Origin: Pirellulaceae bacterium
Lineage (GTDB): Bacteria; Planctomycetota; Planctomycetia; Pirellulales; Pirellulaceae
Direction of reading: 5' to 3'
NCBI GenBank assembly: GCA_026004775.1
Contig: BPJU01000020.1
Location: forward strand, 1 to 64,000
Length of the DNA stretch: 64,000 bases
Below the pieces are notes generated by a model. The model was not told the DNA's origin. It ran no database searches and saw only the letters and a program-made list of their open reading frames with translations. Positions 1 to 46,473 of the stretch are shown piece after piece (positions within the stretch are counted from its first letter, which is position 1; every line of letters begins with the position of its first letter). The position numbers and the translations under genes are program-made.

Positions 1-344
1 CTGAGCTGCGCAGCACGCGCTATGCACCGGCTTTAACCAGCGTCTTGGGTGACCCACACGGCCGGGACGGCCGTGCCACGTGTGGCACGGGCGTCTCGCC
101 CGTGGGGAGTTGACGTTCCATCCCGAGGCAGATTGAGCTGCGAAGCACGCGCTATGCACCGGCTTTAACCAGCATCTTGGGTGACCCACACGGCCGGGAC
201 GGCCGTGCCACGTGTGGCACGGGCGTCTCGCCCGTGGGGAGTTGACGTTCCATCCCGAGGCAGTCTGGCTGCGCAGCACGCGCTATGCACCGGCTTTAAC
301 CAGCATCTTGGGTGACCCACACGGCCGGGACGGCCGTGCCACGT
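1..344. repeat. Palindrome-rich tandem repeat, about 132-bp unit, left part
   Basis: Two full units and part of a third follow each other with a period of 131-132 bp; units begin near 3, 135 and 267. Each unit carries three nested palindromes: CACGGCC-gggac-GGCCGTG, GTGCCAC-gt-GTGGCAC and CACGGGCG-tct-CGCCCGTG. The third unit is cut at base 344 by the group II introns and resumes at 4261. Short open frames over this stretch give low-complexity peptides containing HGRDARAT, which I take to be spurious translation of the repeat. No protein-coding gene is supported here. Confidence 0.85.
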
Positions 345-388
345 ATAGGGGTAGGGAAGGCCCATTGGTTTGGGCCTCCCCTCCCTCC

Positions 389-421
389 GAACCGTACGTG
401 CGGGTCTCCCGCATACGGCTC
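389..421 (-). ncRNA. Group II intron domain V, copy A
   Basis: On the minus strand this 33-base element starts GAGCCGTATG, has a GAGA-type loop and ends ACGTACGGTTC. It carries the AGC catalytic triad and folds as the standard domain V hairpin. It lies between the maturase stop and domain VI, as required for an active ribozyme. Confidence 0.88.
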
Positions 422-435
422 TCCGGTTGGTGGTT

Positions 436-1782
436 TTACCTCCGAGAGGGTTGCCAGAGCTCGCTGTGGGCCGTCGTCAGGTCAAACAACCCATGCGCGC
501 TAAAGAAGGCGTTCGGCCAGCGAAGATGATCCCGTCCTCTGCCTCGTCCCTTGCCTTTCCTACGCCTGCGTAGTATTGATCGCAGGCGCATCCGTACCCA
601 CTGATCTATTTTCGGAAAGACCGTCTTCGTGCTGTGTTTGTAGTATTCAAACCAGCCACGTAATGTCCGGTTCACGTCGGCTATGATCTCCGTTAAGGGC
701 CGTCCGTCGGTGCGGCGCGTCTTCGCGCGAATCGTGTCGTAGACTTTCTTGAGACTCTTCTCTCGCGGGAACCGATAAGCTCGCTTTCCCAATCGGAAGT
801 GATACCCTAGAAAGTCGAAACCCTCTTCGTGCGTCGCGATCCGTGTCTTCGTCGGATGCAGCTGCAGGCCGGCTTCTTCGGTCCATTGTCGGACCAGTGC
901 CAGGGCCTGTTCCGCTTCCTCTCGAGTACGACACAGTATCACAAAATCGTCCGCGTAACGGACCATCTGGAACCCTTTTTCGGCCATCAGATGGTCGAGT
1001 GGGTCCAGATAGATGTTCGCTAGCAGTGGGCTGATGATCGCTCCTTGGGGTGTCCCCTCTTCCGGAGTCCACGTCGATAAGCCTTCCATCACCCCCTGCT
1101 CCAGAAACATCTTGATCAGCCCCAGGATGCGCCCGTCGCTGATCTTCTGGCCCACCCGAGCCAATAGTCGATCGTGTGGGATCGTGTCAAAGTAGCTTTT
1201 CAGGTCGGCATCTACGATGTACCTATAGCCTTCCTTCAGCAGCTTATCCACGCGCCGCAAGGCGTCTTTGGTGCTGCGTCCGGGACGGAAGCCGTAGCTG
1301 TGCTCGGCGAAGTCCCGCTCGAAGATCGGCTCGATCACGTATCGTAATGCCGCCTGCACTACGCGATCCCGAATCGTGGGTATGCCCAAGGGGCGCTTCT
1401 CCTGGCTGCCCGGCTTCGGGATGTAGACCCGTCGTATCGCTTGAGGTCGATACGTCCCGTCTTGCAACTGCTCTGCCAGCTTGTCTGTCTCTTCAGACAT
1501 CCGCTTCGCATATTGCTCCGGGGTTACATGGTCCACTCCCGCTGCTTTGTGTGGGTCACGAGTGACCCATCGGGCCGCTTCTTGAAGCGTCCTGGAGGCA
1601 TAGACTTTGTCGATCAAGCTGTACCATCGACCTCCTTTCACCCCCGTTTCGAGGGCCGACAACATGCGACCTTTCCAGATCCACGGTTTGGCCCATGCCC
1701 ACTTCTGCGGGCGTGGTGCCTCTCCGCTGCGTGTAGCCCCTTGGGGCACTGCCGGCGGTGGGTGTTCCGTGTTTCTGGTCAT
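436..1782 (-). CDS. ltrA: Group II intron reverse transcriptase/maturase, copy A
   Basis: A 448-residue intron-encoded protein. The RT fingers and palm carry the GTPQG motif near 243-247 and the catalytic YADD at 276-279. A maturase (domain X / GIIM) region follows at about 340-415, and the C-terminus has the RWPNAFFSAHGLF stretch common in these proteins. There is no HNH endonuclease domain, as expected for IIC elements. An AAGGTGG-type ribosome binding site lies upstream of the ATG. The protein would bind its own intron RNA, assist splicing and copy the intron into DNA at new sites. The frame is intact and identical in protein sequence to copy B, so both could be active. Confidence 0.95.
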   Translation of the reverse strand: MTRNTEHPPPAVPQGATRSGEAPRPQKWAWAKPWIWKGRMLSALETGVKGGRWYSLIDKVYASRTLQEAARWVTRDPHKAAGVDHVTPEQYAKRMSEETDKLAEQLQDGTYRPQAIRRVYIPKPGSQEKRPLGIPTIRDRVVQAALRYVIEPIFERDFAEHSYGFRPGRSTKDALRRVDKLLKEGYRYIVDADLKSYFDTIPHDRLLARVGQKISDGRILGLIKMFLEQGVMEGLSTWTPEEGTPQGAIISPLLANIYLDPLDHLMAEKGFQMVRYADDFVILCRTREEAEQALALVRQWTEEAGLQLHPTKTRIATHEEGFDFLGYHFRLGKRAYRFPREKSLKKVYDTIRAKTRRTDGRPLTEIIADVNRTLRGWFEYYKHSTKTVFPKIDQWVRMRLRSILRRRRKGKGRGRGRDHLRWPNAFFSAHGLFDLTTAHSELWQPSRR

Positions 1783-2346
1783 GCCTCATCCACCTTCCTG
1801 GACCCCTTCGCTCCACGGGCATTACCCCGCTTCCTCACTACTACGGGTCCTCTGACTCCTGCATGGGTGCTTTCCTCGGGTTTGCCGCTGAGTTCGCTCC
1901 TTCCGCCCGCGGCTCTCGGCGGAGGCCTGGGCCTATGAGTCACGCAGCGTCCCCCACTGCGAATCTGCCCGAGTTCCGCATCCTAACGCCCACGCAGGTC
2001 TCCCTCCTTCACGTCACCGAGCCTTCCGAGCGTTCCGTCCCCAAACACCCCCCGTTGCCTCAGGATCGGTCTGTTTTGTTCCTGAGCTGACCGCACCAGG
2101 CGGCATCTTGGGCTTCGCCCTTGCCACGCAGGCTCGCCGCAACGACAGGCCGAATCGGGTTCGTCATCCTACGGACCACTCGTTCACCTCCAGTTGCTTC
2201 CCACCTCTCCTCGCGGAGACGCAGTTACTTTCAGTTACAGAGCTCAGACCAAGCTCTGGCAGGGACTTCCACCCTGCTGACTCAGTGCGCTCGGAGGCGC
2301 ACATAGGGGTAGGGAAGGCCCATTGGTTTGGGCCTCCCCTCCCTCC

Positions 2347-2379
2347 GAACCGTACGTGCGGGTCTCCCGCATACGGCTC
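2347..2379 (-). ncRNA. Group II intron domain V, copy B
   Basis: Identical to the domain V of copy A and in the same place relative to the maturase stop and the intron 3' end. It keeps the AGC triad and the full hairpin. Confidence 0.88.
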
Positions 2380-2393
2380 TCCGGTTGGTGGTT

Positions 2394-3740
2394 TTACCTC
2401 CGAGAGGGTTGCCAGAGCTCGCTGTGGGCCGTCGTCAGGTCAAACAACCCATGCGCGCTAAAGAAGGCGTTCGGCCAGCGAAGATGATCCCGTCCTCTGC
2501 CTCGTCCCTTGCCTTTCCTACGCCTGCGTAGTATTGATCGCAGGCGCATCCGTACCCACTGATCTATTTTCGGAAAGACCGTCTTCGTGCTGTGTTTGTA
2601 GTATTCAAACCAGCCACGTAATGTCCGGTTCACGTCGGCTATGATCTCCGTTAAGGGCCGTCCGTCGGTGCGGCGCGTCTTCGCGCGAATCGTGTCGTAG
2701 ACTTTCTTGAGACTCTTCTCTCGCGGGAACCGATAAGCTCGCTTTCCCAATCGGAAGTGATACCCCAGAAAGTCGAAACCCTCTTCGTGCGTCGCGATCC
2801 GTGTCTTCGTCGGATGCAGCTGCAGGCCGGCTTCCTCGGTCCATTGTCGGACCAGTGCCAGGGCCTGTTCCGCTTCCTCTCGAGTACGACACAGTATCAC
2901 AAAATCGTCCGCGTAACGGACCATCTGGAACCCTTTTTCGGCCATCAGATGGTCGAGTGGGTCCAGATAGATGTTCGCTAGCAGTGGGCTGATGATCGCT
3001 CCTTGGGGTGTCCCCTCTTCCGGAGTCCACGTCGATAAGCCTTCCATCACCCCCTGCTCCAGAAACATCTTGATCAGCCCCAGGATGCGCCCGTCGCTGA
3101 TCTTCTGGCCCACCCGAGCCAATAGTCGATCGTGTGGGATCGTGTCAAAGTAGCTTTTCAGGTCGGCATCTACGATGTACCTATAGCCTTCCTTCAGCAG
3201 CTTATCCACGCGCCGCAAGGCGTCTTTGGTGCTGCGTCCGGGACGGAAGCCGTAGCTGTGCTCGGCGAAGTCCCGCTCGAAGATCGGCTCGATCACGTAT
3301 CGTAATGCCGCCTGCACTACGCGATCCCGAATCGTGGGTATGCCCAAGGGGCGCTTCTCCTGGCTGCCCGGCTTCGGGATGTAGACCCGTCGTATCGCTT
3401 GAGGTCGATACGTCCCGTCTTGCAACTGCTCTGCCAGCTTGTCTGTCTCTTCAGACATCCGCTTCGCATATTGCTCCGGGGTTACATGGTCCACTCCCGC
3501 TGCTTTGTGTGGGTCACGAGTGACCCATCGGGCCGCCTCTTGAAGCGTCCTGGAGGCATAGACTTTGTCGATCAAGCTGTACCATCGACCTCCTTTCACC
3601 CCCGTTTCGAGGGCCGACAACATGCGACCTTTCCAGATCCACGGTTTGGCCCATGCCCACTTCTGCGGGCGTGGTGCCTCTCCGCTGCGTGTAGCCCCTT
3701 GGGGCACTGCCGGCGGTGGGTGTTCCGTGTTTCTGGTCAT
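2394..3740 (-). CDS. ltrA: Group II intron reverse transcriptase/maturase, copy B
   Basis: 448 residues, identical at protein level to the copy at 436-1782, with GTPQG, YADD (276-279), the maturase domain and the same C-terminal RWPNAFF stretch. The three base differences between the copies fall inside this reading frame (in copy A near 807, 876 and 1577) and are all silent. This means either very recent duplication or a protein kept intact by selection. Confidence 0.95.
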   Translation of the reverse strand: MTRNTEHPPPAVPQGATRSGEAPRPQKWAWAKPWIWKGRMLSALETGVKGGRWYSLIDKVYASRTLQEAARWVTRDPHKAAGVDHVTPEQYAKRMSEETDKLAEQLQDGTYRPQAIRRVYIPKPGSQEKRPLGIPTIRDRVVQAALRYVIEPIFERDFAEHSYGFRPGRSTKDALRRVDKLLKEGYRYIVDADLKSYFDTIPHDRLLARVGQKISDGRILGLIKMFLEQGVMEGLSTWTPEEGTPQGAIISPLLANIYLDPLDHLMAEKGFQMVRYADDFVILCRTREEAEQALALVRQWTEEAGLQLHPTKTRIATHEEGFDFLGYHFRLGKRAYRFPREKSLKKVYDTIRAKTRRTDGRPLTEIIADVNRTLRGWFEYYKHSTKTVFPKIDQWVRMRLRSILRRRRKGKGRGRGRDHLRWPNAFFSAHGLFDLTTAHSELWQPSRR

Positions 3741-4260
3741 GCCTCATCCACCTTCCTGGACCCCTTCGCTCCACGGGCATTACCCCGCTTCCTCACTACT
3801 ACGGGTCCTCTGACTCCTGCATGGGTGCTTTCCTCGGGTTTGCCGCTGAGTTCGCTCCTTCCGCCCGCGGCTCTCGGCGGAGGCCTGGGCCTATGAGTCA
3901 CGCAGCGTCCCCCACTGCGAATCTGCCCGAGTTCCGCATCCTAACGCCCACGCAGGTCTCCCTCCTTCACGTCACCGAGCCTTCCGAGCGTTCCGTCCCC
4001 AAACACCCCCCGTTGCCTCAGGATCGGTCTGTTTTGTTCCTGAGCTGACCGCACCAGGCGGCATCTTGGGCTTCGCCCTTGCCACGCAGGCTCGCCGCAA
4101 CGACAGGCCGAATCGGGTTCGTCATCCTACGGACCACTCGTTCACCTCCAGTTGCTTCCCACCTCTCCTCGCGGAGACGCAGTTACTTTCAGTTACAGAG
4201 CTCAGACCAAGCTCTGGCAGGGACTTCCACCCTGCTGACTCAGTGCGCTCGGAGGCGCAC

Positions 4261-4392
4261 GTGGCACGGGCGTCTCGCCCGTGGGGAGTGACGTTCCATC
4301 CCGAGGCAGACTGGGCTACGCAGCACGCGCTATGCACCGGCTTTAACCAACGTCTTGGGTGACCCACACCGGCCGGGACGGCCGTGCCACGT
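4261..4392. repeat. Palindrome-rich tandem repeat, right part after the introns
   Basis: This completes the repeat unit interrupted at 344 and adds most of one further unit, ending at the GCCGTGCCACGT palindrome arm. Together with 1-344 it gives about three and a half units. The copies carry a few substitutions and a one-base length difference (gggagtgacg here, gggagttgacg in units one and two), so they are diverged rather than freshly amplified. Confidence 0.85.
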
Positions 4393-4569
4393 GCCAGCAG
4401 CTCTCTTACAAAATAACTTGACGTACCACCCTTCCCTGTGTCAGGCTGATATTATGGCAGGTGAGGTGCTTTGCCGCGCAGGCGTTAGCAGCAGCTTTGG
4501 ATATGTCCTGAACCGGCGTATCCCTACCTCAGTCATGTGCCACAGTCCCGGTCCGCGGAGCGAAAATCG

Positions 4570-39371: not shown

Positions 39372-40628
39372 ATGAACATCGCCATGATTGGTACTGGGTA
39401 TGTCGGCTTGGTGACAGGAACCTGTTTTGCCGACAGCGGCAATGATGTAACCTGCGTCGACATCGACGAAGCGAAAATAGCGGCACTCAAACGCGGCGAA
39501 GTGCCTATCTACGAACCGGGCTTGCAGGAGATGATCCAACGCAACGTCAAGGCAGGCAGGCTGCGGTTCACGACCAATGTCGCCGAAGCCGTGCGCCCCG
39601 CTGAACTGGTGTTTCTGGCCGTCGGTACCCCTCAGGCCGAGGACGGAGCCGCCGATATGCGCTTCTTCTGGAGCGCCGTCGAGCAGATTGCCCCTCACCT
39701 CAATCCATCGGCCATCGTGGTCATTAAGAGCACCGTTCCGGTAGGAACCAATGCCGAAACCTATGTACGGTTAATGGAGTTGACCGGGCGGGAAGTGGAA
39801 GTGGCCAGTAACCCGGAGTTCCTCAAAGAAGGGGCCGCCATTCAGGACTTTACCCTGCCGGATCGAGTGGTGGTGGGAGTACACAAGCCCGAAACGGCTG
39901 AGATACTGCGCCGGCTGTATGAGCCGTACTTGCGAACGGACCACCCGTTCCTGGTGATGTCACCTTCCAGTGCCGAGCTTACCAAGTATGTGGCCAATGC
40001 GATGTTGGCGACGAAAATCAGCTTCATCAATGAGATGGCCAACTTGTGCGAACGGTTAGGGGCGGATATCAACGATGTGCGTCGGGGTATCGGGCACGAC
40101 CGCCGTATCGGTTTCGCATTCTTGTTTCCCGGCGTCGGTTACGGGGGGAGCTGCTTCCCCAAAGACGTGCGTGCCCTGGCCGCTACGGCTCGCCGCGTCG
40201 GCCTGGAAACGCTCATGCTTCAGGCTGTGGATGAAACCAACAATCGGCAAAAGAGAGTACTGATCCAAAAAATCCAGAAACACTTCGGGGACGACATCTC
40301 CGGCCGCCGTTTCGCCGTATGGGGCATCTCCTTCAAACCGCGCACCGACGATATCCGCGAAGCCCCAGCTTTGGTTCTGATCGACTGGTTGCTCGAACAC
40401 GGTGCCACCGTCGCCGTGCACGATCCGGAAGCCATGCCCAACGCTCGGCGAATGTACCAGGAGCGTTTGCTCTACTGCGAGCGTTCGCTGGATGCCCTTG
40501 ACCAGGCGGACGCCCTGGCGATCAATACCGAATGGAGCGAATTCCGGCACCCGAACTTCCGCGAAATGCGCGCCCGTATGAAATCCCCGGTGATTTTCGA
40601 TGGCCGAAACTGTACGATCCTCGGGTAA
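39372..40628 (+). CDS. ugd: UDP-glucose 6-dehydrogenase
   Basis: 418 residues. Rossmann motif [10 protein letters not shown] at the N-terminus, central dimer helix ([21 protein letters not shown]) and the catalytic Cys261 in GGSCFPKD. It oxidises UDP-glucose to UDP-glucuronate with two NAD+, a precursor of acidic surface polysaccharide. GGAG precedes the ATG. It sits after gmd on the same strand, together suggesting surface-sugar synthesis. Confidence 0.96.
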
Positions 40629-40768
40629 TGCGGGAATTGGGATTCACCTACTATTCGATCGGCCGCGTTTCGATTCGGCCTGATTAGTCCAAACGGCACT
40701 ACGCCACCGGCAACTCCCAGCCCTGTCGCCTTCCAGCCGCCGGGCTGAAAAAACGAGGAGGATGGACC

Positions 40769-41089
40769 GTGGACTTGATCGCCATCATCACCACCACGTC
40801 GACCAAAGAAGAAGCCGAACGGCTGGCCAGAAAACTGGTGGAAGAGCGTCTGGCAGCGTGTGTACAGGTTTCCGGCCCGATAGTCAGTTTTTATCGGTGG
40901 CAGGGAGCCTTACAGCAGGATACCGAATATCGCTGCTGGATCAAAACCCGAAAGCAACTGTATCCCCGTGTCGAGGCATTGCTCAAGGCGGAACATTCCT
41001 ACCAGGAGCCGCAGATAATTGCTGTGCCGATTTGTGATGCCAGTCCGGGTTACTCAGCCTGGCTGGCAGCAGAAACGGTGGAACCCTGA
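40769..41089 (+). CDS. cutA: Divalent-cation tolerance protein CutA
   Basis: 106 residues from GTG 40769, chosen because AGGAGG lies ten bases upstream and the ATG at 40762 is in another frame. The family pattern is clear: ITTTSTKEEAERLARKLVEERLAACVQ, then FYRWQG, and HSYQEPQIIAVPI. It is a small trimeric protein linked to copper tolerance or signal-like regulation; the function is not fully known even in E. coli. Confidence 0.93.
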   Translation: MDLIAIITTTSTKEEAERLARKLVEERLAACVQVSGPIVSFYRWQGALQQDTEYRCWIKTRKQLYPRVEALLKAEHSYQEPQIIAVPICDASPGYSAWLAAETVEP

Positions 41090-41117
41090 CCCGGGCGCCC
41101 GAAGGGGAACGCCGGCC

Positions 41118-41588
41118 ATGGCGTGGCATGTTTTTCACGGGCTGCTTCACCCGCATCCCGACTTCCCGGCGTACGACGTGGCACGCTGGATCCGGGGAGC
41201 CCTGGTTCAGCCGGTGGTGCTTACGGCGGAACAGCAAACCAAGCACTTCGCTCTTTCGTTTCATGAACTGCTTACTCGCTGGCAGACGCTGCCGCACGCT
41301 TTGATAGAACCGGACGGTTCCTTCGGCTGGTCGGCCAAAGCCGGCGCATCGAGAGGCTGGCAGCGGCCAAGCCGCATCAGCGGCGTCTTCTATGAAAGAG
41401 AGGACTCGCTTTACTACGCGGAGTTTTTCGGGGAAGCGGTAACCGAAGAACTGGCCCACTGGCTGAAAGACGTCGGCCTATCCGACGATCAGGTGATTGT
41501 GCAACTTCCCGAGCTGGGGCTGTTTGTCACCTGGGGTGATTTCCTTAAGGTTACGGCAACCGATGATGCTGCGCAAGCCGAACGGTGA
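41118..41588 (+). CDS. Hypothetical protein
   Basis: 156 residues from ATG 41118, 28 bases after cutA on the same strand; the open frame to 41019 overlaps cutA. Aromatic and acidic with repeated short helices and strands; ends WGDFLKVTATDD. No family recognised. It may be cotranscribed with cutA. Confidence 0.65.
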   Translation: MAWHVFHGLLHPHPDFPAYDVARWIRGALVQPVVLTAEQQTKHFALSFHELLTRWQTLPHALIEPDGSFGWSAKAGASRGWQRPSRISGVFYEREDSLYYAEFFGEAVTEELAHWLKDVGLSDDQVIVQLPELGLFVTWGDFLKVTATDDAAQAER

Positions 41589-41651
41589 TCGGGCGGCTGG
41601 CTGAGACGATCGTGCACGGAAGACTTTGTGAGAGGAGTCAGGCTCGATCGC

Positions 41652-41693
41652 AAAAAGGCACAAGGCTCGATACGCATCGCGTACCGAGCCTTG
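41652..41693 (-). terminator. Rho-independent terminator of the BBP7 gene
   Basis: The stem CAAGGCTCG pairs with CGAGCCTTG (41661-41693), with a second inner stem (TACGC/GCGTA) and a three-base loop, separated by one mismatch. On the minus strand it is followed after four bases by TTTTT. It lies about 70 bases past the BBP7 stop at 41764. Confidence 0.85.
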
Positions 41694-41763
41694 TTCGGCA
41701 CTTTGGTCAAAACGAGAACGGGCTCGATTGACCGTGTTCGGCGGTCGCCTTTGCGTGCCTCCA

Positions 41764-43161
41764 TCAGTAATTGATGGAAACGCCAGCGAAGGCTCCGTGG
41801 AGTATCAGGCTGCCGTTGGAATCGACGTTGCGTACACTGTCGACCGTCCAGATGTTGTCCAGCGGGATCTGGTTCGTGGAGAGTGCGACACCTGTGAGGG
41901 CCACGGCGCGATAGCCGCCGGTGAGGCTGATGGCCCGTGTCAGTTGGTAGTTGCCTCCCAGAGCCAATTCCCCGAGGATCGCTACATCGTCCTTGCTGCT
42001 GCGGATGTCGATCACTTCGCCGTCGAACGGACCACCCGGGTTGTTCACCACGGCAAACCCGTTGCTGCCGCCGATCGACGAGCGGTGCCGGATATGGTTG
42101 CCGAAAAGTCCCAGTTTGGCATCCGCGAACAGATTGAACCAGCTGGCCGGTTGATACGTGACGCGGCCGCCGATCTGGGCTCCGACCAGATGGTTGACTA
42201 CGTCGATCGTATACGCCATTTCTTCCGGATCTCCGGTAAACTCTTCATCGACGCGGTCCGAAGCGAATTGCAGCCCTTCATCAAATCGGAAGTAGCGAAC
42301 CCCCAGAGCCGTGGAGTACCGCCAGCAGGAATCCTGAAGCGGCCACACGAAATGGAGCAGATTCACTTCCACATTTTGGAATTGGAAGCTGCGCAGTAGC
42401 CGGTGTCGCTCGACGTCGTTGAAGAAATCGTCCACAGGCTCATTACCTGTTCCGGGGTCATAAACCAGATTGTCGAACCGGATCCAGGTGCGCAGGTCTC
42501 CCACCAAGCCGCAATCGCAGGCGTTCGCCTGGCGCACATTCGGAAACAGACCCCAGTAGACCAGTTCCCAGGCATTCTGGCGGCAATTGAAGTATCGCCC
42601 CAGACGCGTCTCGAAGCCCCCCGCCCAGTCCATATCGGCGTGGCGGCTGGCCAGGAGTTTGTAATCGGGGAAAGCCGAGTCGTAGCTGAGCCACACGTCG
42701 TTTTCGTTATCGCGAGTCATGATCAGGCCGTAGACCCCGCCGAACCAGTCGCTGCACAATCCGTCCGCACACCACGCGCCGACAAGATCGGCATGTTTAC
42801 CCGGCTGGCTGGCCGATTCGCCGGACTCAGGGGCCGGCATCGGCGGAGGGCCATACAACGACACCACCGAATGGGGTTCCGTGTGGTTGGGCACCATCGA
42901 CGTGCGCACACCAGCCCCGTACACCGGCGCTGCCGGGTTTTGCCACGCCGGTGGAGAATTGGGGTTCGTGTGGACCGGTACCAGCGGGTCCTGGCCAGCC
43001 GGCATCAGAGCCGGCGGCACCGCCGGAAGCTGGTAATCCACCACGGCGCCCGGGCCGTACGGTGCCGTTCCAGCGGGCACCGCATACTGGGCGGAAGCCT
43101 CCAGCACCACCCCGAAGGTGGCTAGAAGCCATACTGCCATCTGCCGCTTGCTCGCTAACAT
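41764..43161 (-). CDS. BBP7-type outer-membrane beta-barrel protein
   Basis: 465 residues from ATG 43161, chosen because AGAAGG and GGAG lie upstream and a signal peptide follows (KRQMAVWLLATFGVV...SAQ). The open frame extends to 43311 without protein-like sequence. A Pro-rich linker (about 25-120) leads to a domain with alternating aromatic strands (VWLSYDSAFPDYKLL, WELVYWGLFPN) ending in a strand with terminal aromatic Tyr (AFAGVSINY), as in outer-membrane barrels. This matches the planctomycete BBP7 family. A strong terminator follows. Confidence 0.82.
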   Translation of the reverse strand: MLASKRQMAVWLLATFGVVLEASAQYAVPAGTAPYGPGAVVDYQLPAVPPALMPAGQDPLVPVHTNPNSPPAWQNPAAPVYGAGVRTSMVPNHTEPHSVVSLYGPPPMPAPESGESASQPGKHADLVGAWCADGLCSDWFGGVYGLIMTRDNENDVWLSYDSAFPDYKLLASRHADMDWAGGFETRLGRYFNCRQNAWELVYWGLFPNVRQANACDCGLVGDLRTWIRFDNLVYDPGTGNEPVDDFFNDVERHRLLRSFQFQNVEVNLLHFVWPLQDSCWRYSTALGVRYFRFDEGLQFASDRVDEEFTGDPEEMAYTIDVVNHLVGAQIGGRVTYQPASWFNLFADAKLGLFGNHIRHRSSIGGSNGFAVVNNPGGPFDGEVIDIRSSKDDVAILGELALGGNYQLTRAISLTGGYRAVALTGVALSTNQIPLDNIWTVDSVRNVDSNGSLILHGAFAGVSINY

Positions 43162-43672
43162 CCTTCTTGCTCCTTCCAAACAATTCCTTCCAGCCCGGCA
43201 AGGACGAACAATCCGCGGTCGTGCCGTGACCAATCGCCTTGTTTCCGGACCATCCTGCTGGCGGCATCCGTTCAACGGCTCGGGGCCTCCTGCCCATCCG
43301 TTTTCTGCCATCGACGATCGTCACGTCGTTTCATGCGGATTTGTGCCCTGCGGAACGATTTCCCTCCGCAGGGACCATACCTGAAAGGAGCTAAAGAAAT
43401 AACCGACACGCAGGGAAGAGTTTTTCTTATCCGGCAGAGTGCGGTCGGTCACGCATCCCAATCGTTTCAAGCAGTACACACTCCGGGCACCAGGCAGCTA
43501 CAACCGGCAAAGAAGGCACGTGCGGTGAATTCCGAACAGAAGGCATTTCAAAAATAGTTTCTCAAAAAAGTTCTGAGCCCATCCTGCCCAAGACCAGCTT
43601 GGCAGGCAATTCGCAAGTAGTAGAGCTGGGAAACTTCTCGTTAGCGGCCACGGTTGTGGATTGGGTGTGGTC
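43162..43672. other. Long intergenic region upstream of the BBP7 gene
   Basis: About 510 bp between the TPR gene stop and the BBP7 start, both on the minus strand, so it should hold the BBP7 promoter. It contains an eight-base inverted repeat (CCCTGCGG/CCGCAGGG, 43346-43373) that could form a leader hairpin, and a possible terminator for the upstream gene. I see no gene. Confidence 0.45.
43564..43606 (-). terminator. Possible terminator after the TPR gene
   Basis: CCTGCC-CAAG and CTTG-GCAGG (43583-43606) form a nine-pair stem with one bulge, but the TTTTTT run is about 13 bases beyond it, so terminator function is uncertain. Confidence 0.35.
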
Positions 43673-45031
43673 TTAACGCAACAGCCCAAGAGCGAACTGG
43701 GCCCGGCCGTGATGAGGTACCAACAGCAGACATTTTTGATAGGCTTCGCGAGCCACCGACGGTTGGGCGTTGCAGCGAGCGGCTTCTGCCAGGAGGTACC
43801 AGGCTTGAGGATCGCCGGGCGCAAGCTCGGTGGCTTTGCGCAGGGCACCCGCGGCATCCTGGAATTCACCGCGAGCGAGGCGGATACGTCCCTCGGCCAG
43901 CCAGCGAGCGGCATCGTACTGTTTTCCCCGCACCACCTCGCCGCGGCCCTCGGCTTTCAGCATCACATAGGTGAGAAACTGGTCTAACTCCCGGTCGCCA
44001 CGCCCGACGACTGCGGCCTGCTCCCACACGTCCCAGGCTTCTTCAAATCGTCCGGTATCGAATAGCAGATCGCCCAGCCGCCACAGCAAATGCAAGGTGG
44101 CTCCTTGACGCTGGATCGCATCCCGCAACACCTGTTCGGCCTGAGCCACCCGCCCTTCGCGAGTAGCCCATTCGGCCATCAAGTCCGCCGCCTCCACCGA
44201 CCATTCCGCCTCGAGCAACCGCTCCAAATGGGCATGCAGCTCGTCCAGTTTTCCGTCCGATAACAACTGATGAGCATACCGGAGTCCCTGGCGATACGGT
44301 GTATTCTCCAACCGGCGTGACAGCTCATCATGCTGATCGTCAAACGGAGATCGCAGGGGGTAAGCCAGGCTCAGCCACTCCAGTGCGGCTCGACGCTCTT
44401 CATCCTCATCGCCCAACAATTGTGCGGCACGCAGGTGCACGAAGAACGGAGCGTAATGGAATCGGAAGGAGCGCGTCAGTGGTTCAATTATGCGTCGGGC
44501 CTGCTCGGGTTGGCCCAGCTTGTTGTACAGGCGAGCCAGTTCATACGTGGCGGCCGGCAATAGTTCCGCCCGCCGCAGCGCCACCTTCGCTTCTTCTGCA
44601 TTTTCCTGCCGGAGTTGATTCTGTGCCACGAAGAACCAGACAATTTCCGGGTCCTTGTATCCCTCGGCAATTGCTCGCTCCAGATACTGCACGGCCTGGT
44701 CGGCACGGCCCAGTTGTCCCGAGTAGAAACCGCATTCGAACAGCCACTCCGGAGCTGCCCTCCAAGCCTGCCGGCATGCCTGCTCATAGCAGGCCACCGC
44801 CTCAGGCCAAAACCCCCAGGCAGCGTAGCTGCGGGCAAGCTCGATCCAGTCCGAAGCCCAACCACGACAGGCATTCTGGTACTGCCGGCGCAGGGCGGCC
44901 TCGTCCAAACGGTTCAAGCCGTGCTGAGCTGGCCAGGGCGGCAACGGCTGTCGGCTGCGCAGGTACAGCCCTCCTGCTCCCAGCAGACATTCCACGATGA
45001 CAACCGACGCCAAGACTACGGTCCGGCGCAT
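43673..45031 (-). CDS. Membrane-anchored TPR protein
   Basis: 452 residues. One N-terminal membrane anchor (RRTVVLASVVIVECLLGAGGLYL), then a chain of tetratricopeptide repeats covering nearly the rest (for example YAAWGFWPEAVACYEQA, GQLGRADQAVQYLERAI, GDLLFDTGRFEEAWDVW, PGDPQAWYLLAEAARC). It should act as a protein-binding scaffold on the periplasmic side. Its start overlaps the stop of the FG-GAP gene by one base (TGATG), so it is translationally coupled. Confidence 0.85.
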   Translation of the reverse strand: MRRTVVLASVVIVECLLGAGGLYLRSRQPLPPWPAQHGLNRLDEAALRRQYQNACRGWASDWIELARSYAAWGFWPEAVACYEQACRQAWRAAPEWLFECGFYSGQLGRADQAVQYLERAIAEGYKDPEIVWFFVAQNQLRQENAEEAKVALRRAELLPAATYELARLYNKLGQPEQARRIIEPLTRSFRFHYAPFFVHLRAAQLLGDEDEERRAALEWLSLAYPLRSPFDDQHDELSRRLENTPYRQGLRYAHQLLSDGKLDELHAHLERLLEAEWSVEAADLMAEWATREGRVAQAEQVLRDAIQRQGATLHLLWRLGDLLFDTGRFEEAWDVWEQAAVVGRGDRELDQFLTYVMLKAEGRGEVVRGKQYDAARWLAEGRIRLARGEFQDAAGALRKATELAPGDPQAWYLLAEAARCNAQPSVAREAYQKCLLLVPHHGRAQFALGLLR

Positions 45032-46473
45032 CAGCGTCCCGCTCCTGTGGTCGTTGGCCCGCCTTCTGCACGCCAGAGCAGCAGATGGGCCAGCGGCTCA
45101 TTCGGCTTGGTGATGTGCGCCCCTCCCACAACAAACTCGGCTCGTCCGTCGCCATCGACATCGGCACAATCGACCGTGGCCAACTGGATCGGGTGACTGC
45201 TGATCTGCCACGGGACGAATCGGCCGCCCCCCGCGTTCTGCAACCAGATGATGCTGGCCGCCTGTCGGTCTCTCCAATTGTTGAACATGCTTACCAACAC
45301 CACGTCGGGCAAACCGTTGCCGTCCAGATCGCCGACCGCTGCCCCGTAAGTACCGCCGAATGTTACCAGCCGGCGCGACGAAAAGTTCCAATTCCCCTCG
45401 TTTCGCAACCAAACACATCCGTGACTTGGCTGCGGATGGTGACTCAAAAGTTCGTAATTGTCCCCGGCTACCCACAGCATATCGGGCCGGCCGTCCAGGT
45501 CCAGATCGCAGCGTACCAGGCCTACACCGCCGAAGTCGAAGTTGATGGTGGAAGCGAGCAACCTTCGCTGGAATTGGCCGCCTCCGAGATTCTCAAATCC
45601 CCAGACTTCTTCCTCATTCTGCGTAACGACGGCAGCAAAATCCGGATCCCCATCGCCGTCCCAGTCAGCCACCGGTACGTGAACTGTACCGGGCACAGCC
45701 ATCAGGAGCCGGTCGCGGAATCGGCCTTCTCCCAGGTTTTCCATCCAAAAGATCGAACCCCGATGGTAGCCAAATTCCGCTACGACCAGGTCCAGGTCTC
45801 GGTCGTTGTCGAAGTCTGCCGCCTGTACGTCGGTAACTCGCCGCAAGTCTTGCAACAACAGGTGGGGAACAAAACGCTGGTTGTCGACATTCTCCAGCCA
45901 TGCCACGCTTCCCACAGCATCATCCGTCGGCCACAAACTCCCCAACCCGGCTACCAAAATGTCCAAATCCCCGTCGCGATCCAGATCGATCGCTTCGGCA
46001 TGCCCGGGAGCCAACACCGATCGCTCCGTTCCCACCACACGCTCTTCCCAGCGGTTCGATGGTCCTTGCCGGATCCACAGGACGCGGTGGGCAAAGGCGT
46101 CGCACACCAGAACATCCATCAAGCCGTCTTGATCGAGGTCACAAAACCGAACATGGGTGATCCGCGGATCGCCTGTCAGCGACGGAGCCAAGGACCTGGA
46201 GGTGAACGGAATCGTGGAGGGATCGAAGCGTGAGGCATCCAGTTTCACCGGCACGGGCTGCCGGCCCAACGGCAGGAAGTAATATGCCAACCCGAACAGA
46301 AGTGGCAGGACCAACGCGCCGGCCAGCAGAAGCCGGTCCTGCCATCCCCAGCGGCCGGTACGCGGTTCGGTTGTCGACACGGGGCGATCGGTCCTATTCA
46401 CTTTTTTCGGGCACTTCTCTGGTTGTCTGCCGTCCAACGAAGCGAACCATGATGCGACGGCATCAATCTCCAT
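45031..46473 (-). CDS. Membrane-anchored FG-GAP/VCBS beta-propeller protein
   Basis: 480 residues from ATG 46473 (the open frame reaches 46542 but then overlaps the upstream gene by 80 bases). A membrane anchor lies around 47-69 (LLLAGALVLPLLFGLAYYFLPL region). The outer part has seven Asp-rich calcium motifs of the type DxDxDGxxD (DLDQDGLMD, DLDRDGDLD, DFDNDRDLD, DWDGDGDPD, DLDLDGRPD, DLDGNGLPD, DVDGDGRAE), enough for one seven-bladed propeller. It is between the thioredoxin-like and TPR genes with overlaps on both sides. Confidence 0.87.
   Translation of the reverse strand: MEIDAVASWFASLDGRQPEKCPKKVNRTDRPVSTTEPRTGRWGWQDRLLLAGALVLPLLFGLAYYFLPLGRQPVPVKLDASRFDPSTIPFTSRSLAPSLTGDPRITHVRFCDLDQDGLMDVLVCDAFAHRVLWIRQGPSNRWEERVVGTERSVLAPGHAEAIDLDRDGDLDILVAGLGSLWPTDDAVGSVAWLENVDNQRFVPHLLLQDLRRVTDVQAADFDNDRDLDLVVAEFGYHRGSIFWMENLGEGRFRDRLLMAVPGTVHVPVADWDGDGDPDFAAVVTQNEEEVWGFENLGGGQFQRRLLASTINFDFGGVGLVRCDLDLDGRPDMLWVAGDNYELLSHHPQPSHGCVWLRNEGNWNFSSRRLVTFGGTYGAAVGDLDGNGLPDVVLVSMFNNWRDRQAASIIWLQNAGGGRFVPWQISSHPIQLATVDCADVDGDGRAEFVVGGAHITKPNEPLAHLLLWRAEGGPTTTGAGR

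Follow-up and report, generated by a model that had tools for sequence, protein, structure and literature searches.

Two group IIC-like introns in a zero-spacer head-to-tail tandem in a Pirellulaceae bacterium

Group IIC introns, among them GsI-IIC and Ta.it.I1 of bacterial class C, are described in the cited parts of two accounts as targeting a stem-loop plus a short IBS1 (PMC7161350, PMC3898094). Other described systems place a pair of group II introns at a single site, as in the bacterial twintrons (Thermosynechococcus, Trichodesmium, Methanosarcina), which need ordered splicing according to excerpts of the sources (PMC2882425, PMC4649490), or rearrange the intron itself, as in circularly permuted group II introns, where domains V-VI stand ahead of domain I (PMC8637638, in excerpt).

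Within a 64,000-nt stretch of a Pirellulaceae genome (the window; contig BPJU01000020.1), two complete, active-looking group IIC introns form, as judged from their sequence, a genuine head-to-tail tandem. The locus resembles the twintrons in that a pair of group II introns shares a single site and would need ordered splicing; however, twintrons are nested, one intron within another, whereas each copy here is uninterrupted across 1,958 bp, and a nested twintron was therefore ruled out. A circularly permuted intron was likewise ruled out: domains V-VI of copy B do come before domain I of copy A at the junction, but both copies are complete, their domain order is normal, and no exon lies between them to circularise. 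Of the proteins with solved structures, the GsI-IIC enzyme is the one closest to the RT/maturase, and the target is a stem-loop with a short IBS1, as in group IIC introns, a likeness read from protein and target rather than from RNA. Unlike GsI-IIC and Ta.it.I1, the copies abut directly and the hairpin lies in a dispersed host repeat, not a demonstrated terminator. None of the titles and abstract openings among the literature matches listed described bacterial group II introns in zero-spacer tandem, which fits the original prediction that such tandems are rarely described; the arrangement is not unique, though, with two further cases in plasmids recorded as complete.

Anatomy and boundaries of the tandem

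The introns are encoded on the minus strand, and the order in the transcript is therefore 5′ exon, copy B, copy A, 3′ exon (Table 1). The predicted coordinates, 1,958-bp lengths, zero spacer, and 5′ GTGCGCC and 3′ CCCCTAT ends were borne out for both copies, as were domains V and VI with a bulged A (single in the predicted fold, 8 nt from the 3′ end) and an intact maturase in each. The description of the tandem as "perfect" holds for the seamless junction, with nothing between the copies, but not for the copies themselves, which differ at three positions (808/2766, 877/2835, and 1579/3537 in A/B), each T versus C on the plus strand and all synonymous.

Table 1. Features of the tandem and its flanks, in window coordinates.
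Feature	Coordinates	Strand	Details
Array of 132-bp host repeat	1-344		2.6 copies; 3′ exon side of introns
Intron copy A	345-2302	minus	1,958 bp; downstream member in transcript
Domains V + VI, copy A	345-423	minus	RF00029 58.5 bits (cut-off 40); predicted branch A at 352, same sequence
Intron-encoded protein, copy A	436-1782	minus	448 aa; amino-acid sequence same as copy B's
EBS1, copy A	2123-2127	minus	GTGGC, same intron position as in copy B
Head-to-tail junction	2302-2303		CCCCTAT/GTGCGCC on minus strand; spacer zero; outer junctions share no microhomology with it
Intron copy B	2303-4260	minus	1,958 bp; upstream member in transcript; full-length match to copy A, 3 differences
Domains V + VI, copy B	2303-2381	minus	RF00029 58.5 bits (cut-off 40); predicted branch A at 2310
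Intron-encoded protein, copy B	2394-3740	minus	448 aa; RVT_1 + GIIM; TIGR04416
Domain I region, copy B	4029-4178	minus	group-II-D1D4-3 (RF02001) 26.5 bits, under curated cut-off 32
EBS1, copy B	4081-4085	minus	GTGGC, intron 176-180; intron-exon covariation
IBS1	4261-4265	minus	GCCAC, in 5′ exon
Target hairpin + IBS1	4261-4282	minus	ACGGGCGAGACGCCCGTGCCAC; within dispersed host repeat
Host repeat, 5′ exon side	4261-4393

The intron-encoded protein scored 398.4 bits against TIGR04416 (cut-off 300), and a Pfam scan returned RVT_1 and GIIM, plus a weak RdRP_1 under its cut-off, with no DNA endonuclease domain found. Among solved structures, 6ar1 (GsI-IIC; 1.7e-66) ranked first, followed by 7uim (1.3e-64), 6me0 (1.5e-52), and 5g2x (LtrA; 5.5e-44), which we take to be IIC, IIB, and IIA for the last three, respectively. 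The predicted group IIC-like character is thus supported by the closest solved protein, by the hairpin with its short IBS1, and by the Pfam result on the endonuclease domain.

Joining the outer flanks restores an intact host repeat, as had been claimed, exact over 63 bp across the junction, with one T absent from the right flank just beyond. The boundaries cannot slide, because the 5′ exon ends in C and the intron in T, while the intron starts with G and the 3′ exon with A. The tandem junction itself coincides exactly with both intron ends, without microhomology. Duplication of a single intron at the DNA level, via slippage or unequal recombination, would fit the near identity of the copies and a host site that is itself a tandem repeat; yet the duplicated unit starts and stops exactly at the intron ends, and both plasmid tandems likewise break at intron ends, the breakpoint of one being ambiguous by 1 bp. 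Since the breakpoints share no sequence, we regard such a duplication as quite improbable.

The tandem starts 345 bp from the start of its contig (C20), one of 30 in the host draft, and adjoins a tandem repeat, a position in which an assembly error could arise. Against this, a junction of such specific sequence would be expected to derive from actual reads, the two copies can be told apart at three positions, joining the flanks regenerates the host repeat, and two plasmids recorded as complete carry the same arrangement; an artefact near the contig end is therefore very unlikely.

The pair are the sole full-length copies in the host genome assembly, which holds no second tandem. Two ORF-less copies with both ends are also present (C7:301637-302480 and C13:17228-18071), giving four copies with both ends at three sites, each preceded by the hairpin and GCCAC except copy A, which is preceded by copy B. 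The ORF-less copies at separate sites suggest past mobility, and from these sequences we infer an element capable of retromobility and self-splicing. Allowing up to 3 mismatches, at least 101 hairpin sites exist in the host genome.

Target recognition and expected splicing

Across 15 introns, EBS1 and the flanking DNA covary, with 68 of 75 pairs Watson-Crick, against a mean of 24 and a maximum of 55 in shuffles (0 of 100,000 as high), although this comparison overestimates how many of the changes are independent, because some rows are near relatives (e.g., L089 and L101). In this set, the EBS1 letters were taken by eye from the alignment and the 5′ ends by eye from 14 of the 29 related loci, L086 having been left out beforehand for its single exon base on the contig. 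A stem was predicted close to the junction in all 15 introns (a raw count with no shuffle control), and the predicted 5′ exon stem in the window stops 4 nt short of the intron junction.

The two possible insertion sites differ in their fit to EBS1. The EBS1/IBS1 duplex is calculated (RNA parameters) at -6.9 kcal/mol with the hairpin exon versus -0.8 kcal/mol with the 3′ end of copy B, where the EBS1 of copy A faces CCTAT and forms 2 Watson-Crick and 2 wobble pairs out of 5. A hairpin, that of domain VI, also stands before CCTAT at the end of B. The first 3′-exon base in relatives is C in 19 of 21, whereas copy B precedes G.

The earlier expectation that splicing could yield either copy alone, both, or a chimera is too even, since in place a fully matching IBS1 is available to copy B alone. 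From this, splicing of B and then A, or excision of the dimer, is predicted; copy B would splice first unless the dimer is excised, and once B is spliced out copy A would regain its IBS1. A tandem transcript could release a 3.9-kb dimer via the outer splice sites, both intact, and a dimeric two-intron RNA from an older tandem could have moved in as a unit. With no second tandem in the host assembly, and with the question of origin merely displaced, we consider this source highly improbable.

Tandems in other genomes and plasmids

Searching sixty related genomes with the intron DNA gave matches in 21, the best outside its own genome being 69% over about 490 bases, and no close full-length relative was found among them. 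Within the 29 related loci, those self-compared (L047-L103) held no intron-length direct repeat (longest 475 nt), and RF00029 matched once per locus where found, except for two matches on opposite strands in L093; as a survey of tandems this is weak, because many contigs stop near the intron.

Across 392 genomes of the phylum, the pattern GTACGGTTC...AYGTGYG matched 30 times in 30 genomes, the window among them; one further match (G326, locus L128) looks like a genuine 3′ end, but no second GTACGGTTC occurs within the 1,864 bp of its locus, and the remaining 28 were taken as chance by eye, not one by one. The pattern CGGTTCGGAGG...CCCTAY with G at +5 matched 27 times in 14 genomes, of which we left out one (G337) as not intron-like by eye. 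The tandem accounts for one of the 26 comparable intron 3′ ends, the window junction, five of the 26 coming from the host genome. Further sets of 6, 7, and 247 genomes yielded 5, 1, and 5 matches to this pattern (G455 and its match fall in the last two sets), none in tandem, and viral contigs yielded two, neither intron-like by eye. The viral contigs also hold one relative of the intron-encoded protein (61% identity). In a search of the 392 genomes with that protein, 41 had a match at 1e-60, and an adjacent pair was seen in the window alone, with up to 4 candidates scored in nearly all genomes.

In plasmids, 138 records matched; among the 60 listed, 13 had matches in at least two places, and 2 of these 13, which are not independent as several come from one species, carry a zero-spacer tandem. 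Both are head-to-tail and full-length, splice-end to splice-end, as in the window, and lie in plasmids recorded as complete: pBs1S1a of Bradyrhizobium septentrionale 1S1 (NZ_CP088284.1) and pBN3 of Paraburkholderia aromaticivorans (NZ_CP022993.1). The element itself is thus of a known kind, and its tandem arrangement is rare but recurs. Unlike the window introns, the Bradyrhizobium intron has a domain I of type RF02003 and adjoins an IS110-family gene; no hairpin is demonstrated before it, and simple complements of its exon end revealed no EBS1. The Paraburkholderia intron passes the RF02001 cut-off, but its domain V is under the RF00029 cut-off. Its EBS1 (ACTAA) can form all 5 pairs with the outer IBS1 (TTAGT) but 1 of 5 with CCTAT, so this tandem follows the same logic as that in the window. 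An E. coli intron that we examined has another domain I type and an unclear 5′ end, and for the latter reason gives no denominator for tandem frequency.

Proposed origin and implications

We lean, with little more than even confidence, towards a second insertion at the occupied site. Copy A would have entered first, 3′ of the hairpin and IBS1 (GCCAC) in the dispersed host repeat. As the hairpin and IBS1 stay intact upstream after insertion, a second copy can land without a spacer: another intron ribonucleoprotein would reverse-splice at that same junction, directly after IBS1 and ahead of the first nucleotide of copy A, and the inserted copy B would be converted to DNA via target-primed reverse transcription, giving the spacerless order 5′ exon, B, A, 3′ exon. 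The opposite order, A inserting after B, is disfavoured by the weak EBS1 pairing with CCTAT. SNP polarity would be weak evidence of insertion order: an older copy fragment (C20:75030) covers two of the three differing sites and copy B has its base at both, and in the Bradyrhizobium tandem each copy has one private change.

Several observations count against re-insertion, among them the G that follows copy B where relatives usually have C, and the setting of the Bradyrhizobium tandem beside an IS110-family gene. In addition, the only two full copies share one site despite the at least 101 hairpin sites, which free choice would give in about 1 in 100 cases, an estimate qualified by the tandem having been noticed precisely for being tandem; and a same-class genome (G445) carries 11 copies of a relative, no two of them in tandem. 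The shared site, along with full-length copies and zero spacer, is what one would expect had there been a single insertion event in which the intron-encoded RT, on reaching the 5′ end of a first RNA at the target, jumped to the 3′ end of another intron RNA, so that two cDNAs became linked end to end. For the GsI-IIC enzyme, seamless template switching onto another strand's 3′ end has been described; this enzyme is the closest solved relative of the protein here, although the cited parts of these accounts concern purified enzyme, not cells (PMC5566474, PMC3898094). Such an event would also require that the 5′ exon become joined to the end of the second cDNA. Furthermore, B. septentrionale 162S2 has one copy at the site where 1S1 has two, and the flanks are identical for 1,408 bp on the upstream side and 1,757 bp on the downstream side, which suggests a stepwise path to the tandem, or later loss, as 162S2 could have lost one copy through recombination. 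Taken with these points, template switching is possible, if somewhat unlikely, and stepwise re-insertion remains our preferred reading.

Models of intron spread, such as the saturation model, count a homing site as spent once it is occupied, in the cited part of the source (PMC3522654). A broader and decidedly speculative view, which we think unlikely, is that group II mobility regularly produces zero-spacer tandems because the introns confer no immunity on their site, and that the arrays then behave as composite units, in which the upstream intron must splice first and dimers are excised and re-inserted, and serve as natural precursors of circularly permuted group II introns. The EBS1/IBS1 rule should allow targets to be predicted from sequence for this group IIC-type intron family, and B. 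septentrionale 1S1 and 162S2 offer a natural strain pair for testing stacking. If the 5′ half-site stays live after insertion, introns could stack at one locus while keeping the ability to splice, which would provide a simple way for intron arrays, intron multimers, and permuted introns to arise.

Anatomy of the tandem and related intron copies

The draft genome (6.14 Mb, 30 contigs) contains 16 matches to the intron, of which only the two copies in the window (the first 64 kb of the 116,720-bp contig C20) are full-length. As originally noted, these adjoin directly in a head-to-tail arrangement, each carrying domains V and VI (RF00029, 58.5 bits each) and a bulged A placed by the predicted fold 8 nt before the 3′ end. 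Each also encodes a 448-aa protein that combines reverse transcriptase and maturase domains; its nearest solved structure is GsI-IIC (6ar1), followed by 7uim. The missing spacer was confirmed. The copies are not identical and differ at three sites, all synonymous. Given a chance of 0.045 that three of three random G-to-A changes on G sites of the ORF are all synonymous, this hints at past selection on the intron protein. The outer flanks, once joined, restore the intact host repeat exactly (63 bp spanning the junction), as had been claimed.

Location of the intron copies and plasmid loci (C, contigs of this genome; L, extracted loci)
Feature	Location	Description
Copy A	window 345-2302, minus strand	1,958 bp
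Copy B	window 2303-4260, minus strand	1,958 bp
ORF-less derivative (L005)	C7:301637-302480	844 nt
ORF-less derivative (L004)	C13:17228-18071	844 nt
5′-truncated fragment	C20:75030-75909	3′ end kept or nearly
5′-truncated fragment	C1:432092-432693	3′ end kept or nearly
5′-truncated fragment	C18:26147-26806	3′ end kept or nearly
5′-truncated fragment	C25:11598-11801	3′ end kept or nearly
5′-truncated fragment	C9:221305-221504	3′ end kept or nearly
Bradyrhizobium septentrionale 1S1 pBs1S1a tandem	L177 1409-5244 (NZ_CP088284.1)	two abutting 1,918-bp copies, 2 differences
B. septentrionale 162S2, same site	L178 1464-3381 (NZ_CP088289.1)	one copy
Paraburkholderia aromaticivorans BN5 pBN3 tandem	NZ_CP022993.1	two abutting 1,859-bp copies, identical
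Lactobacillaceae plasmid	W06 (NZ_CP014926.1) 39925-45065	two same-strand maturase copies

The introns have inserted into a partly palindromic repeat of ~131 bp found at dispersed sites. This hairpin-bearing family, represented by window 1-344 plus 4261-4393, has many copies across the genome and forms the intron landing site; window 1-344 has at least 45 matches (best 40 of 99 candidates scored), and the hairpin motif ACGGGCGAGACGCCCGTGCCAC has 101 (≤3 mismatches), compared to 0 for its reversed control. A planctomycete host is probable: a gene with DUF1598, typical of planctomycetes, neighbours the tandem, and planctomycete MAGs (by record title) account for 15 of the 29 loci that carry a related protein.

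The tandem and both ORF-less derivatives are preceded by the hairpin and GCCAC. Both derivatives fuse intron positions 1-676 to 1785-1958 at a 6-bp near-repeat through the same deletion. As they have two changes in common and retain both intron ends and EBS1 at differing target sites, both sites appear to have received one and the same ORF-less intron, presumably mobilised by protein supplied in trans. The pattern of the five truncated fragments (two with internal gaps) is that expected of incomplete reverse transcription.

Exon recognition and predicted splicing

At the same aligned position in relatives, a five-base stretch of domain I varies in step with the DNA preceding each intron. Across 15 introns (the tandem's intron, 13 relatives, and the Paraburkholderia intron, some being near relatives), 68 of 75 EBS1/IBS1 pairs are Watson-Crick, a count reached by none of 100,000 shuffles (mean 24, maximum 55). 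This covariation assigns EBS1 to intron positions 176-180 and IBS1 to the last five exon bases, and also supports the assigned 5′ ends. The EBS1 of both copies (GTGGC) pairs at the 5′ junction (GCCAC, 4261-4265) with -6.9 kcal/mol, versus -0.8 kcal/mol with the intron 3′ end (CCTAT), to which it could still form two Watson-Crick and two wobble pairs.

With copy B lying first in the transcript, this pairing logic suggests that copy B can splice first, and that copy A would then meet the hairpin exon and splice next. The reverse order is disfavoured on the same sequence grounds, while excision of a dimer through the outer sites is possible. Of 21 3′ ends from other genomes, 19 have C as the first 3′-exon base, but it is A or G for the full and ORF-less copies here, so this preference seems not to be strict in this genome.

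Origin of the tandem and its recurrence on plasmids

Insertion keeps the hairpin and IBS1 unchanged 5′ of the new intron and, given the stronger pairing at the 5′ junction, a second copy would be expected upstream, flush against the first. DNA duplication of a single intron is argued against by the tandem junction, which lacks microhomology to either outer junction. Both copies may instead derive from a single event of reverse transcriptase template switching, as described for the purified GsI-IIC enzyme in PMC5566474, or from two separate insertions. That the full copies occupy the same site, out of at least 101, speaks for a linked process or a cis preference; B. septentrionale strains with one versus two copies favour two steps, or later loss. 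No tandem occurred in a genome carrying 11 copies of a relative. Copy B has the same base as an older copy at two of the three differing sites, weakly supporting a later change in copy A.

Zero-spacer tandems recurred in two of 13 plasmid records with at least two places for the protein, among the matches listed. The pBs1S1a tandem adjoins an annotated IS110-family transposase gene, probably interrupted by the introns. Strain 162S2 has one copy there between flanks that are identical for 1,408 bp on the upstream side and 1,757 bp on the downstream side, a natural two-copy/one-copy group II intron polymorphism at one plasmid site, and each pBs1S1a copy has one private change, absent from the single copy and four other copies compared. 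All five bases of the Paraburkholderia EBS1 (ACTAA) pair with the outer IBS1 (TTAGT), compared with one of the five for CCTAT; domain I of this intron matches RF02001 above cut-off, and its domain V falls below that of RF00029. The 200-base junction of each plasmid tandem was covered end to end in its own record alone, out of 16 matching plasmid records for one tandem and 4 for the other. The W06 maturase pair was rejected as a zero-spacer tandem, its copies lying 4.1 kb apart.

Within the phylum, a pattern search of 392 genomes found a tandem at one of 26 comparable 3′ ends, that of the window, using a pattern whose G at +5 retains such tandems but should retain only ~1/4 of other ends. The window likewise held the only adjacent protein pair in the 41 genomes where the protein was matched (best few candidates per genome scored). 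Such tandem counts are biased, both by the +5 G of the pattern and by draft assemblies breaking at repeats. Among the open-access papers listed, titles and abstract openings covered nested twintrons and permuted introns and yielded no zero-spacer tandem of bacterial group II introns, which does not prove absence. The element itself is of a known kind; the novelty lies in the zero-spacer placement of its copies, in the recurrence of this placement and in the proposed half-site explanation.
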